Positions 38,069 to 42,586 of a DNA stretch of 64,000 nucleotides are shown here, one piece after another. The position numbers and the translations under genes were made by a program. The DNA is from Nocardia transvalensis NBRC 15921 (GTDB lineage Bacteria > Actinomycetota > Actinomycetes > Mycobacteriales > Mycobacteriaceae): assembly GCF_000308875.1 (NCBI RefSeq), contig NZ_BAGL01000124.1, positions 1 to 64,000 of the forward strand, in the 5' to 3' direction. How positions within the stretch are numbered: the first letter of the stretch is position 1; every line of letters starts with the position of its first letter. The notes under the pieces are model-generated. The model was given only the letters and a program-made list of their open reading frames with translations. It was not told the DNA's origin and ran no database searches.

Positions 38069-38356
38069 TCAGACGGCGTCGAAGTACTCGATCTTCGGCG
38101 CGCCGGCCAGGAGCGGGGCGAGATTCTTCCCCGCGGCGCGGAAATGATCGGATTTGCCGTGGAATTCGAGCGCCTCGTCGTTGTCGTACAGCTCGAAGAT
38201 GCGGTAGGAGTTCGGGTCGCTCTTGGACCGGACGAGCCGGTACTCCCGGTTGCCCGGCTCGTTCTGCTCGATTTGCTGCACGAGATCGGCCACCACGGAT
38301 TCGAGTTCGGCGCCCTTCCCGTCCTGCACGGTCAATTCGGCGATTACAGCGATCAT
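38069..38356 (-). CDS. Antibiotic-biosynthesis-monooxygenase-fold protein (YgiN/quinol monooxygenase type)
   Basis: A 95-residue ABM-domain protein: MIAVIAELTVQDGKGAELESV, REYRLVRSKSDPNSYRIFELYDNDEALEFHGKSDHF-like core and AGAPKIEYFDAV at the end. Family members are cofactor-free oxygenases or quinone-handling proteins and act as dimers. AAAGGA lies 7 nt before ATG 38356. It converges on the MHS transporter and may or may not belong to the same pathway. Confidence 0.88.
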   Translation of the reverse strand: MIAVIAELTVQDGKGAELESVVADLVQQIEQNEPGNREYRLVRSKSDPNSYRIFELYDNDEALEFHGKSDHFRAAGKNLAPLLAGAPKIEYFDAV

Positions 38357-38469
38357 GCGTGTTCCTTTCGCGCGCAACCCGCGAGGGGCCGGACTCCGTC
38401 GTCCGTCACTGCAGCTTAGGTCGACGCCGGCCCGGCCTCGGTGACGGGGCGAACAGTCACCCGGCTGTG

Positions 38470-39543
38470 CTACCTGTCGGGCCGTCCCCACCGGGCGAGC
38501 GCGTCGCTCGCGGCGGCCAGCAGGCGCCGGGAGCGCGGGAAGTCCTGCAACCGGGTGCCCAGGATATCGAACACCACACCGAGCGATGCGGCGGGAACGC
38601 CACGGGCGGTGAGGATATCGGCGGTCCAGGTGATGAAACCGGTGAACAGATCGTCGTCGTCGGTGTAGAGGGCGGTGGCCAGGAAATCGACGATATGGGC
38701 GATGTCCTCCGCCGTCCGGTCACGCTGGGCCGCGTTGTAGGCGCGCATCGGCGGGAACCGCTGCTCGAGCCCGGCCAGCGTGGAGGCCACGAGTTGCGGC
38801 GCCGAGCGGGCGACCATCGTGTATTCCTGATCGGCCAGGTGCGCGAGCGGATCGGGCGCCGGCGGGTCGTCGAGCGATACGGCGGTCCGGCGTAGTCCTC
38901 CCCCGAGCAGATCCGCGGCGGCCCGCGCGTCGGGCGCCCACGCGTCGGCGCCCAGCATCCGCGCGTACCGGCCGTCCGGCCCGAACGCCGCGCCGCCGGC
39001 GACGACCGGGATCCCGGTCGCCTGGCAGGCGCTGATCGCGGCATGTGCGGTGGGCAGCCGGGTCGGCAGGGACGACGACAGCGCCACCGCGTCGGGATTG
39101 TGCTGATGCAGATGGACGATCAGATGACCGGTGGGCACCTGCGCGCCCAGGAAGTCGACCCGCCACCCCCGCAGCCGCAGCACCTCGGCGACCAGCCGCG
39201 CGGGCAGCGCGTGCCACTCCCCGTCGACGCAGGCGACGGTGACGCTACCGGCCGTCGTCTCCGACGCGCCCGCGGGATGGTGGGCCAGCGCCGCCATCGC
39301 GCGGTCGTTGATGGCCGTGACGGCATGCTCCTGCGCGACGGTGACGCGGTTCGCCGCCCATTCCACCCCGACTCTGCGCTGCACGGGCGCGACCACCTCG
39401 AGCAGGATCATCTCGACGCTCAACCCGGCGTCGGCCACGCCGAGAAGCACTGCGGCGGCGGCATATTCGTCACGGTCCGAGACCGCGTCCCACAGTTCGT
39501 CGCGGGCCCGATCCACCGAAGGGGCCGCCATACCGGTCGTCAT
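38470..39543 (-). CDS. Cobalamin-binding CarH-like sensor without DNA-binding domain
   Basis: A 357-residue cytoplasmic protein. Residues 1-95 form a helical B12-binding-2 bundle containing W62-x9-E72-H73, the motif that caps the 5'-deoxyadenosyl group in CarH photoreceptors. Residues 100-200 are the Rossmann-like B12 domain with His111 in EWHALP (DxHxxG-like), SSL at 157-159 and GG at 183-184. Residues 230-357 form a helical C-terminal region resembling RsbR-type signalling domains. There is no MerR helix-turn-helix. ATG 39543 overlaps the stop of the PP2C gene, so the two are made together. Adenosylcobalamin light sensing is inferred. Confidence 0.85.
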   Translation of the reverse strand: MTTGMAAPSVDRARDELWDAVSDRDEYAAAAVLLGVADAGLSVEMILLEVVAPVQRRVGVEWAANRVTVAQEHAVTAINDRAMAALAHHPAGASETTAGSVTVACVDGEWHALPARLVAEVLRLRGWRVDFLGAQVPTGHLIVHLHQHNPDAVALSSSLPTRLPTAHAAISACQATGIPVVAGGAAFGPDGRYARMLGADAWAPDARAAADLLGGGLRRTAVSLDDPPAPDPLAHLADQEYTMVARSAPQLVASTLAGLEQRFPPMRAYNAAQRDRTAEDIAHIVDFLATALYTDDDDLFTGFITWTADILTARGVPAASLGVVFDILGTRLQDFPRSRRLLAAASDALARWGRPDR

Positions 39544-41210
39544 GCCGTATACCTCCCGCTCATGTGCCCGTCGACCGCGCTCAGATGCGCGTGCCGGGGC
39601 GCCGTGATGGCGACGACAGCGATATCGTCGTGCCGCTGCCGGCCCACCCACTCCGTCGTGAGCATCTGGATATGTTCGACCACCGCGTCCGCGGGCATAC
39701 GGGCGCATCCGGACAGGGCCGCCGACAGCCGCTCCTCACCGAACATCTCCCCGCCCAGGGGCCCGCCCCGCGCCTCGGTCACCCCGTCGGTGTAGAGCAG
39801 GCAGGTCTCGCCCGGCGCCAGCCAGGTCCGGAAGGTGGTGGCGGAGATACTGGGCAGCACGCCGACGAGTTGTCCTCGGGTGTCGGCCTTTTCGACGATG
39901 CCGTCACCCCGCACGATCAGCGGCGGCAGGTGGCCGCCACACGTCAGCCGCACCCCCAGGCCGCCGTGGCTGCGGACCACGGAGGCCAGCACGACCGTGG
40001 CGAAGCGGGTGTGCTCGGTGGACAGCAGCGCGCTGTTCAGCATGTTCAGCAGGCGTTCGTGATCGTCGGCCATCGGCGCGAGCGCCTGCAGGGTGTTGCG
40101 GATCTTGCCGGTGAGCACCGCGGCCTCCAGGCCCTTGCCGCACACGTCGCCGAGGACGACCAGCGATTCCCCGTCGGGCGTCGCGGCGGGATGCACGTCG
40201 TAGAAGTCGCCGCCGACGATCTCGTGATTCTCCGACGCGCGGTAACCGCCCGCCAGTTCGATGCCGTGCACCCACCGCAACCGCGGCGGCAGCAGTTCGT
40301 GCATGAGGATGCCGGTGATGTTCACCTGCTCGGCGTAGAGCCGCGCGGCCGACAGCGCACCCCCGGCTCGGGCGGCGAACAGGTGCGCGAAGAGTTCGTC
40401 GCGTTCGCCGAAGACCTGTTCTCCCGTGCGGCGCAACAGGATCAGCGCACCGGCCGGCACGCCGTGCCCGGGCAGCGGAGTGATCACCACCGAACCGACC
40501 GGCCCGTCGAAACCGGCGGGCAGGATCCACTCGGGCACCGTCGCCGGATCGATCCAGCGCGACGGCACCGGCGGGAATCCGCGCAGCGCCTCGCTGAGTC
40601 CCGGCACGGCCGCCGGGTCCTGATCCGCGGTCCCGTGCCACACCTCGCCGCCCGAACAGCAGGACGTGATCGGCAGCTGCGGTCCGGACGCGGGCGCCAC
40701 GACCACCGCGGCGTCCGCGAGATGCTGTGCGGCCATCCGTACCGTCGCCTCCATGCACCGCGTGATGTTCAGCGACGATAGCAAGATGTCGGAGGTCTCC
40801 GAGAGGAATGCCGTGCGCTCCCGCTCCCGCGTCAGCGCCTCGCGCGCGGCGGTCAGCGAGCGGGTGGCGTCCTCGACCAGCCACCACACCACCGAGTGAT
40901 CGGCCAGCACCGTCGGCCGCGCCTCGACCGTCCGGCCGTCCAGGGGACCCGACGCCGACTCGGCCTCCGGACATCCCCCCACGACCTCGGCGTGGGCCCG
41001 CACCAACCAGTCGGGCGCGGTATCGCGCAGCGGCGACCCCGCGCCTATCCCGGGCAGGACCGCCCGGCCCGCGGCGGTGGCGGCCAGCACGGTTCCCGCG
41101 CGATCGACCACCACCGCCGGATGCGGCACCGCCGACCACCCGCCGCACCGGTCGAGCACGGGCTCGGCGTCACCGCTCGGGTACGCCATGTCGACTGCTT
41201 CGTCCACCAC
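39540..41210 (-). CDS. SpoIIE/RsbU-type PP2C phosphatase with PAS and GAF regions
   Basis: A 556-residue multidomain phosphatase. N-terminal PAS-like part (VPHPAVVVDRAGTVLAATAAGRAVLP), a GAF-like middle (about 140-310), and a PP2C domain with metal-binding motifs VGGDFYDVHP, LGDVCGKGLEAAVLTG, LLYTDGVTEAR and HDDIAVVAI. Such enzymes dephosphorylate STAS anti-anti-sigma proteins, here likely the one encoded at 41257. GGAGGA precedes two adjacent GTG codons (41210, 41207); the second is better spaced. It overlaps the B12-binding gene at its end. Confidence 0.92.
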   Translation of the reverse strand: MVDEAVDMAYPSGDAEPVLDRCGGWSAVPHPAVVVDRAGTVLAATAAGRAVLPGIGAGSPLRDTAPDWLVRAHAEVVGGCPEAESASGPLDGRTVEARPTVLADHSVVWWLVEDATRSLTAAREALTRERERTAFLSETSDILLSSLNITRCMEATVRMAAQHLADAAVVVAPASGPQLPITSCCSGGEVWHGTADQDPAAVPGLSEALRGFPPVPSRWIDPATVPEWILPAGFDGPVGSVVITPLPGHGVPAGALILLRRTGEQVFGERDELFAHLFAARAGGALSAARLYAEQVNITGILMHELLPPRLRWVHGIELAGGYRASENHEIVGGDFYDVHPAATPDGESLVVLGDVCGKGLEAAVLTGKIRNTLQALAPMADDHERLLNMLNSALLSTEHTRFATVVLASVVRSHGGLGVRLTCGGHLPPLIVRGDGIVEKADTRGQLVGVLPSISATTFRTWLAPGETCLLYTDGVTEARGGPLGGEMFGEERLSAALSGCARMPADAVVEHIQMLTTEWVGRQRHDDIAVVAITAPRHAHLSAVDGHMSGRYTA

Positions 41211-41256
41211 TGCTCCTCCAAAGAACGGCGTCGTGGTCGGGCCGGCGCCGGACGGT

Positions 41257-41598
41257 TCACGGACCGGTCGCCTCGTCCAGGTGATCGATCAGGCGAATCG
41301 TGTCCGACAGCCCGGTGATCTCGATCAGCCGTCGCACCGGATGGGAGCCGATCACCCTCAGCTCCACCGAATCCCGGGCCGTGCGCAGCAGCACGTTGAG
41401 CCCCGACGAATCGAAGAATCCCACTTCGGACAGATCGACGACAACCGTCCGCGGCCCGCACCGCACCGCGGCGTCGACCGCTTCCCGCAGCCGGGACGCC
41501 GTGAGGATGTCGACCTCGCCCGCGGCGATCACCACGACCGCCGCACCCACCGACACGACGTCGACGGTGAAACCCCGCCGTTGGCCTTCGTGACGCAA
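41257..41598 (-). CDS. STAS-domain anti-sigma factor antagonist
   Basis: About 113 residues: VVVIAAGEVDILTASRLREAV, VVVDLSEVGFFDSSGLNVL (the DSSG with the phosphorylatable Ser) and a C-terminal LIEITGLSD helix. It is the expected substrate of the adjacent PP2C phosphatase in an RsbV/SpoIIAA-like partner switch. The start is uncertain: TTG 41598 is preceded by AAAGG at a good distance and gives the normal family length, while GTG codons further upstream are possible. No RsbW-like kinase gene is present in the window. Confidence 0.85.
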   Translation of the reverse strand: MRHEGQRRGFTVDVVSVGAAVVVIAAGEVDILTASRLREAVDAAVRCGPRTVVVDLSEVGFFDSSGLNVLLRTARDSVELRVIGSHPVRRLIEITGLSDTIRLIDHLDEATGP

Positions 41599-41890
41599 TC
41601 CATGACCTTTCGCATTCCGTACCCGCACGAATCGCACAGCGGCGCGCACGTTCTCACGTGTCGCGGACCCGCGCGTGCTGTTCGGGACGTTCGAAACCAG
41701 GGCCCCGCTCTCTCGTGGACCCGTCGTCGGAATCGGCGAGGCTGTGGTTCTCAACCGTCGCAATTCACCGAGTCTAGAGCCACAAGACCCCAATCCGTAG
41801 TCACACGCGTATAGGGGCGTTCGGCCCAGACCGCGAGTACGACCCGGCCCTGGCCGGAGCATCCGCACCGGCACGGCGGATAATGCTGCT

Positions 41891-42586
41891 GTGATCAGTG
41901 GTGAACAGCGGGTCGATCCCGAATTGACGACGGTGATCGAATCCGTCGTCGGCGGCACGCCCTGTGCCAACTCCGGGGAGTTCCATTACTCGCTCGCCGA
42001 GCGGCGGTGGGAGTGGTCCGACGATCTCGCCCGGATGTTCGGCTACGAACCCGGCACGGTCCGGCCGACCACGGAACTGCTCCTGTCGCATCAGCATCCC
42101 GACGATCGGGCGACCGGTGAGGCGGTGATCCACCGGGTCGAGGACGGCGAACCGTTCTGCGGCCGGCACCGCATCATCGATACCGCCGACCGGGTGCGCG
42201 AGGTCATCGTCATCGGTGACTACGAGTCCGACGACCAGGGCACGGTCGTCGGCACGACCGGGTTCTACATCGACCTCACCGACGCGCTCGAGGAGGAGCG
42301 CAACGACGCCCTCGACAACGTCCTGCCCGAGACGATCGCGGCCCGCGCGCCGATCGAGCAGGCCAAGGGCATTCTGGCCCTGATCTACGGGCTGAACTCC
42401 GAACAAGCCTTCGCGGTGCTGAAATGGCGTTCCCAGCACACCAATACGAAGCTGCGGGCGCTCGCGGCGCGGCTGGTCGAGGAGGCCAGGCAGTTCGACC
42501 CCAACAGTCCCGGGGCGCGCACCCGATTCGACCACGTGCTGCTCACCGTGCACGAACTGGTCGACCCGGCCGCCGACGCGTCCTAG
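41891..42586 (+). CDS. PAS-ANTAR domain regulator
   Basis: A 231-residue protein. Residues 25-135 are a PAS fold (GEFHYSLAERRWEWSDDLARMFGYEPG, HQHPDDR). Residues 145-205 are an ANTAR RNA-binding domain (APIEQAKGILALIYGLNSEQAFAVLKWRSQHTNTKL region). ANTAR proteins act as antiterminators by binding dual hairpins in mRNA leaders. It starts at GTG 41891. It is divergent from the STAS gene, and together with the phosphatase and B12 sensor forms a stress-signalling cluster. The target RNAs are not visible here. Confidence 0.9.
   Translation: MISGEQRVDPELTTVIESVVGGTPCANSGEFHYSLAERRWEWSDDLARMFGYEPGTVRPTTELLLSHQHPDDRATGEAVIHRVEDGEPFCGRHRIIDTADRVREVIVIGDYESDDQGTVVGTTGFYIDLTDALEEERNDALDNVLPETIAARAPIEQAKGILALIYGLNSEQAFAVLKWRSQHTNTKLRALAARLVEEARQFDPNSPGARTRFDHVLLTVHELVDPAADAS

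Follow-up and report, generated by a model that had tools for sequence, protein, structure and literature searches.

Photocobilins, photoreceptors that carry adenosylcobalamin (AdoCbl) together with a bilin, are the closest described relatives of the protein reported here. The 2024 photocobilin paper called the function of the standalone members less clear, and an interaction-network analysis in it suggested that one of them, SasPcob of Saccharothrix syringae, potentially interacts with STAS, SpoIIE and PP2C proteins (PMC10979010). According to the same paper, cyclase activity is altered by photocobilin domains supplied separately, from which its authors concluded that the effect proceeds by protein contact. 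In partner switches, an input phosphatase dephosphorylates a serine of a STAS protein, which then binds an anti-sigma kinase, with release of the sigma factor (PMC8256260, PMC3517971). We analyzed a stretch of 64,000 nucleotides from Nocardia transvalensis NBRC 15921 (contig NZ_BAGL01000124.1, positions 1 to 64,000; hereafter the window), in which a standalone photocobilin gene overlaps the gene of a PP2C phosphatase beside a STAS gene. We consider it probable that this photocobilin provides the light signal for an RsbU/RsbV-type partner switch and acts on the phosphatase by protein contact.

The photocobilin gene occupies 38470..39543 on the minus strand and encodes 357 aa. Pfam, PDB sequence matches and the predicted fold together give the domain order of a photocobilin: a four-helix B12 cap (residues 14-86; PF02607), a B12-binding Rossmann domain (100-209; PF02310) and a bilin-binding globin (about 234-351). 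The ATG at 39543 is the likely start; a longer open reading frame (ORF) of 412 aa begins within the phosphatase gene. The best PDB sequence matches were the dark and light structures of SasPcob (E = 2e-93), to which 173 of 328 aligned residues are identical (53%), followed by an Acidimicrobiaceae photocobilin (2e-40) and then by 1y80 and the MerR-type protein 8jbs; CarH chains ranked lower (8e-7 and weaker). With an AlphaFold model built on an alignment of 24 sequences (mean predicted local distance difference test score, pLDDT, 87.7), the five best Foldseek matches were chains of 8J2W, 8J2X and 8J2Y, with template-modeling (TM) scores of 0.84/0.91 to 8J2W. All seven cofactor residues named for SasPcob (PMC10979010) are kept, with Trp61, Glu71, His72, His108, His137, Asp270 and Trp296 corresponding to W62, E72, H73, H111, H140, D280 and W306. 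Among these, the AdoCbl motifs W-x9-EH and E/DxH (Trp61, Glu71, His72 and His108 in SasPcob) appear as W62, E72-H73 and E109-W110-H111-A112-L113-P114, and the bilin contacts Asp270 and Trp296 as D280 and W306. The B12 protein of the window is a photocobilin, and its C-terminus, which matches SasPcob in sequence and fold and keeps the cofactor residues, is therefore a bilin-binding globin and not the STAS part of an RsbR protein.

The first-pass annotation, made from the sequence alone, had recognized a B12-binding protein at 38470 with W62, E72-H73 and an ExHxxP loop (E109, H111, P114) and without a MerR helix-turn-helix, for which we likewise found no Pfam match in the photocobilin; the RsbR-like helical C-terminus that it described turned out to be the globin. 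We take a C-terminal STAS domain to be defining for RsbR, and membership in that family was rejected because the Pfam scan gave no STAS match in the photocobilin. The globin domain of RsbR is a relative of the photoglobins and has been used as their outgroup (PMC10151467). Weak matches to MtgC, MtbC and MetH would suit a corrinoid protein that serves a methyltransferase or mutase and has no functional tie to the phosphatase gene beside it. All of these matches fall far below the respective cut-offs, however, and photocobilin is the best match by far; nor was a methyltransferase found among the 20 neighbor and partner proteins that were Pfam-scanned, in neighborhoods annotated in part. We rejected a corrinoid methyl carrier and regard this explanation as extremely improbable.

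Conservation was followed in several samples. A public-genome scan with the window photocobilin yielded 437 candidate stretches, of which 388 were confirmed, and the best 80 of these 388 were analyzed; they come from Nocardia, mycobacteria, Streptomyces, Amycolatopsis and others and are skewed to close relatives. The class sample comprises 296 genomes of the window's class; in 46 of them, its own among these, a photocobilin match reached E = 1e-30 or better, and their 54 matches reduce to 51 loci after removal of the own locus and merging of two tandem pairs. The genus sample comprises 148 genomes of the window's genus, with photocobilin in 17 and thus 16 other carriers; it shares species with the Nocardia loci among the best 80 and is not independent of them. 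Linkage was counted from profile matches in ORFs. A GC-based gene caller misplaced genes (it missed the window photocobilin and STAS genes) and was used for neighborhood clusters only.

Directly upstream of the photocobilin gene, at 39540..41210 on the minus strand, lies the gene for a 556-aa phosphatase of the SpoIIE/RsbU type (PF07228), whose stop shares 4 bp (ATGA) with the photocobilin start, as the first-pass annotation had noted. In its model (mean pLDDT 81; predicted TM score, pTM, 0.55), the chain starts with a mixed alpha/beta PAS-like part and ends with the PP2C domain, and between them a GAF-like part is flanked by two helices, the first of them long. PAS and GAF are labels taken from this model and from Pfam matches below cut-off (PAS-like ligand-binding in the window phosphatase, GAF in a relative). 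The best fold match was 3KE6, the chain of Rv1364c with RsbU and RsbW domains. The PP2C domain carries the aspartates that, judged by motif, presumably bind metal. Five Asp columns in four PP2C motifs hold Asp in 80, 80, 79, 79 and 79 of the 80 loci, the remainder being gaps; this alignment-column count supersedes a regular-expression check in which all four patterns appeared in 38 of 75 loci only.

A PP2C gene of the same kind stands directly upstream on the same strand in all 80 relatives, its domain ending 15-168 nt before the photocobilin domain. The 4-bp overlap is possible in 64 of the 73 loci with a placeable start (anchor motif in 75/80), a count that favors overlap because the start nearest to it was taken. 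In 40 of the 51 class loci, a PP2C likewise lies no more than 500 bp upstream of the photocobilin in the same orientation, and it adjoins the photocobilin in 16/16 other genus carriers. In the reverse direction, 30 places, spread over 28 of the 296 genomes, match the window phosphatase at 1e-60, and 28 of these 30 lie beside a photocobilin; one exception (L173) has a photocobilin remnant, and the other is an additional copy, its genome having a linked pair at a different place. Given these counts, the presence of only four SpoIIE-type domains in the 8.4 Mb of the own genome, and the absence of PP2C from all seven of its other B12-domain loci (3.3 kb each; two below the family cut-off), the linkage of photocobilin and phosphatase is beyond chance. 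Their distances also correlate (r = 0.95 for 120 loci and 0.90 for 40 class loci), a measure that ignores phylogeny and was not used as proof. The remnant at L173:4530-5006 (159 aa) lies between the phosphatase and two STAS genes and consists of the cap and first strand fused to the protein end, with a large internal gap. It would fit the cap helices as a contact surface, though as a single case it could also be a dying gene. At another class locus, tandem photocobilin genes (L139 and L140) stand behind a single phosphatase, both with all checked key residues kept.

Of the residues that would hold the cofactors, W62, E72, H73, H111, D280 and W306 are kept in 80/80 relatives and H140 in 79/80. 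In the class sample, where six residue types were tallied per group, the biliverdin Asp is present in 33 of 42 PP2C-linked sequences, compared with 80/80 close relatives; red-light coupling is therefore likely in the close branch and may be weaker in some distant photocobilins. By analogy with the solved homologues, the window protein would bind AdoCbl and biliverdin and share their photochemistry, and its bilin globin may add red light to what is sensed. With one match each to heme oxygenase and to the CobA/BtuR adenosyltransferase in its genome, this organism could make both cofactors. The same residues would, however, also serve a protein that senses cobalamin supply or redox/oxygen and still acts on the phosphatase, in which case light would have only an incidental effect on this soil organism. 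The signal would then lie in the difference between the AdoCbl-bound and the empty (or hydroxy-) protein, and the presence of CobA/BtuR allows for changes in the AdoCbl level. A bilin site would be superfluous in a pure ligand sensor, yet the capping Trp, Glu and His and the bilin Asp and Trp are invariant in 80/80. This argument is weakened outside the close branch by the incomplete conservation of the bilin Asp among the distant linked sequences. On balance, we consider such ligand sensing unlikely and light the better candidate signal. One PP2C-linked homologue of the class sample (L152, genome G071) has R, R, Y and R at the positions of W62, H111, D280 and W306 while keeping Glu-His; it is perhaps blind to both cofactors, though still in the operon.

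The first-pass annotation had also expected light-induced His-Co ligation as in CarH, where His132, which adjoins Trp131, turns into the upper cobalt ligand in the light state (PMC10442372). The window photocobilin has Ala63 at this position. Among the 80 relatives it is Ala in 79 and Val in one; in the 42 PP2C-linked class sequences it is Ala, Gln, Arg, Leu or Glu, and no His occurs there in the 80 relatives or in the 42 linked and 11 unlinked class sequences. As SasPcob, moreover, ends in the light as a water/hydroxide-ligated monomer (PMC10979010), a bis-His light state appears unlikely for the window protein. A canonical CarH-like photoreceptor that forms a bis-His light state and has merely lost its DNA-binding domain would account for the W-x9-EH and ExH motifs and for a weak NCBIfam match to CarH. 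That match reaches only 49.1 bits against a cut-off of 400, and it stands beside the Ala63 substitution, the closer identity to a photocobilin, the added bilin globin and the missing MerR domain. We therefore rejected membership in CarH, and this origin seems highly improbable.

The third member of the module is a STAS protein of the anti-anti-sigma type, encoded by an ORF at 41257..41970 on the minus strand (domain about 41269-41559), 46 bp from the phosphatase gene; translation probably begins well within this ORF. The STAS protein carries the Asp-Ser acceptor motif as DSSG, in which one Ser presumably corresponds to Ser58 of SpoIIAA. Among the 80 STAS domain matches, 58 fit D[ST][STAC]G, and DSMG and DSLG occur among the variants. 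SpoIIAA Ser58 itself provides the precedent for a phosphoserine in this motif (PMC3517971). STAS adjoins the photocobilin-phosphatase pair in 76 of the 80 loci, within 400 bp downstream in 66 and within 1.5 kb upstream in 13 (both in three), and was not found in four. In the class sample it lies downstream in 21 of 51 loci and within 2.6 kb upstream, on either strand, in seven (28/51 in all), with the qualification that distant STAS domains may escape a profile made from the nearer set. Compared with PP2C (40/51), STAS is thus less fixed in the module. The conserved synteny with PP2C and STAS genes to which the first-pass annotation had looked for support is borne out by these counts.

Many Nocardia relatives add an RsbW-like kinase. 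A protein of this kind lies between STAS and phosphatase in nine of the 11 Nocardia loci of the best-80 set, and two of these proteins, when scanned, gave HATPase_c_2 matches of 84 and 73 bits. Of the 16 other genus carriers, 15 have STAS upstream and 12 an intact kinase, which is reduced to two weak pieces in one carrier and was not found in three. The two pieces overlap, at about 2063-2319 of L180 (genome G361) in photocobilin orientation, and represent a decaying copy or sequence errors.

Taken together, the starting point is what is directly observed, that is, the family identity, the conserved residues, the conserved operon and the conserved phosphatase Asp residues. The photocobilin-phosphatase contact is what we infer from synteny. 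In the proposed mechanism, the dark photocobilin would bind AdoCbl, with His111 below and Trp62, Glu72 and His73 around the adenosyl group, and biliverdin through Asp280 and Trp306, and would dimerize head to tail. The Co-C bond would be broken by green light, or by red light that biliverdin absorbs, upon which the Glu72/His73 helix would shift and the dimer fall apart. The light-state photocobilin would then make a different contact with the phosphatase that the overlapping gene encodes, and this would change phosphatase activity on the phosphoserine of the neighboring STAS protein, which in turn would bind or release an RsbW-like kinase, so that a sigma factor or other client is freed or held. 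That light should change phosphatase activity is suggested by the known steps of partner switches taken together with the photocobilin effect on a separate cyclase. In outline, this agrees with the first-pass proposal of an AdoCbl-type photosensor that lacks a DNA-binding domain and acts through protein contact on the PP2C of a partner switch, which is also the best reading here and is backed by synteny.

Several points weigh against this reading. Sequence does not tell in which direction light would shift phosphatase activity, and the effect of standalone SasPcob on a foreign cyclase had a sign that depended on the bilin (PMC10979010). Conserved gene order indicates functional linkage and not direct contact, and genome relatedness inflates the counts. 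STAS was not found nearby in 23 of the 51 class loci, and the PP2C-linked L152 homologue lacks the cofactor residues. Adjacent PP2C is missing from 11 of the 51 class loci, four of which are either partial matches (L153, L170 and L172) or start at a contig end (L155); at another of the 11 (L162:3944-7579), the photocobilin lies directly behind GGDEF and GGDEF-EAL genes. The partner is therefore not fixed across the whole family. L162 can be seen as the unfused counterpart of a photocobilin-cyclase fusion. Further downstream in the pathway, no sigma factor was found among the 20 Pfam-scanned neighbor and partner proteins, with no dedicated sigma-factor search made. A search with the kinases of two relatives found no RsbW-like kinase in the window, where 46 bp occupy the kinase position, and the operon here thus has no HATPase_c_2 anti-sigma kinase.

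This last absence, shared with three of the 16 other genus carriers, and the patchy presence of photocobilin in the genus (17 of 148 genomes) would also fit a vestigial module, in which the operon kinase is gone and the switch controls nothing or another client has taken over. On the other hand, both the photocobilin and the phosphatase ORF are intact and retain the key residues, and other HATPase_c_2 proteins of the genome could serve (35 matches of all strengths, many near or below cut-off). We judge a vestigial module quite unlikely, and a working light-controlled partner switch remains our preferred reading. Extended to the class, we lean towards the view that most standalone photocobilins are dedicated inputs of a hard-wired, light-controlled partner switch made of STAS, an RsbW-like kinase, a PAS-GAF-PP2C phosphatase and the photocobilin, in which the phosphatase is set by contact and a sigma factor or other client is controlled.

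The photocobilin family and the suggested STAS/SpoIIE connection were already known; what is added here is how widely the phosphatase linkage extends, together with the operon that includes a kinase. In the literature searched on B12 photoreceptors with SpoIIE/STAS, PMC10979010 was the only paper found that joins both, and its neighborhood supplement or Schneider 2022 may show wider synteny. The conserved operon points to the phosphatase encoded by the overlapping gene as the likely target, to STAS as the likely substrate and, for many Nocardia relatives, also to the kinase; the output could therefore be reconstituted in vitro from four proteins. The likely job of standalone photocobilins is now open to testing. 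If the proposal is correct, B12/bilin photobiology would be joined to partner switching, by which responses to stress and in development are governed.

The first-pass annotation had counted a PAS-ANTAR gene with the module; the gene does adjoin STAS in the window, divergently at 41891..42586 on the plus strand (Pfam), but its linkage is not conserved. Homologues are common in the genus (141/148 genomes), yet one lies near a photocobilin in only 1/80 loci and, on the other side, in 1/16 other genus carriers. We therefore rejected PAS-ANTAR as part of the module, and as far as synteny shows it is a bystander. The single case in the genus sample is L189:5595-6239 (photocobilin orientation), where the homologue lies downstream of the photocobilin. 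Directly downstream of the window photocobilin, at 38069-38491 on the minus strand, the Pfam scan placed a small gene of the antibiotic-biosynthesis-monooxygenase type. The second ten neighbor proteins scanned were metabolic proteins, DivIVA, LysR and similar, each in some loci at most.

Among known systems, SasPcob (PDB 8J2W/8J2X; PMC10979010) is the nearest, as a standalone protein with the same domain order, fold and seven residues. It is 53% identical to the window protein, which is known from sequence and whose operon with PP2C and STAS is seen directly and is widespread. AbDPcob, a photocobilin-diguanylate cyclase fusion (PDB 8J2Y), has the same sensory fold, and in it too light acts on an enzyme; it differs in being fused to GGDEF, and the bilin Asp, kept in the window protein as D280, is reported to be replaced by His in AbPcob (PMC10979010). 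CarH/LitR share the cap and Rossmann domain, the capping Trp and Glu-His, and the lower-ligand His, whereas the window protein has no MerR domain and no His132 equivalent and carries an extra bilin globin. On the output side, the module resembles RsbU/RsbV/RsbW and SpoIIE/SpoIIAA/SpoIIAB in placing PP2C, STAS and, in 12 of 16 other genus carriers, an RsbW-like kinase in one gene row, and the window phosphatase finds its best fold match in Rv1364c (3KE6), a single chain with both RsbU and RsbW domains. What sets the window apart from these switches, besides having no kinase of its own, is a separate B12/bilin photoreceptor as the presumed input.

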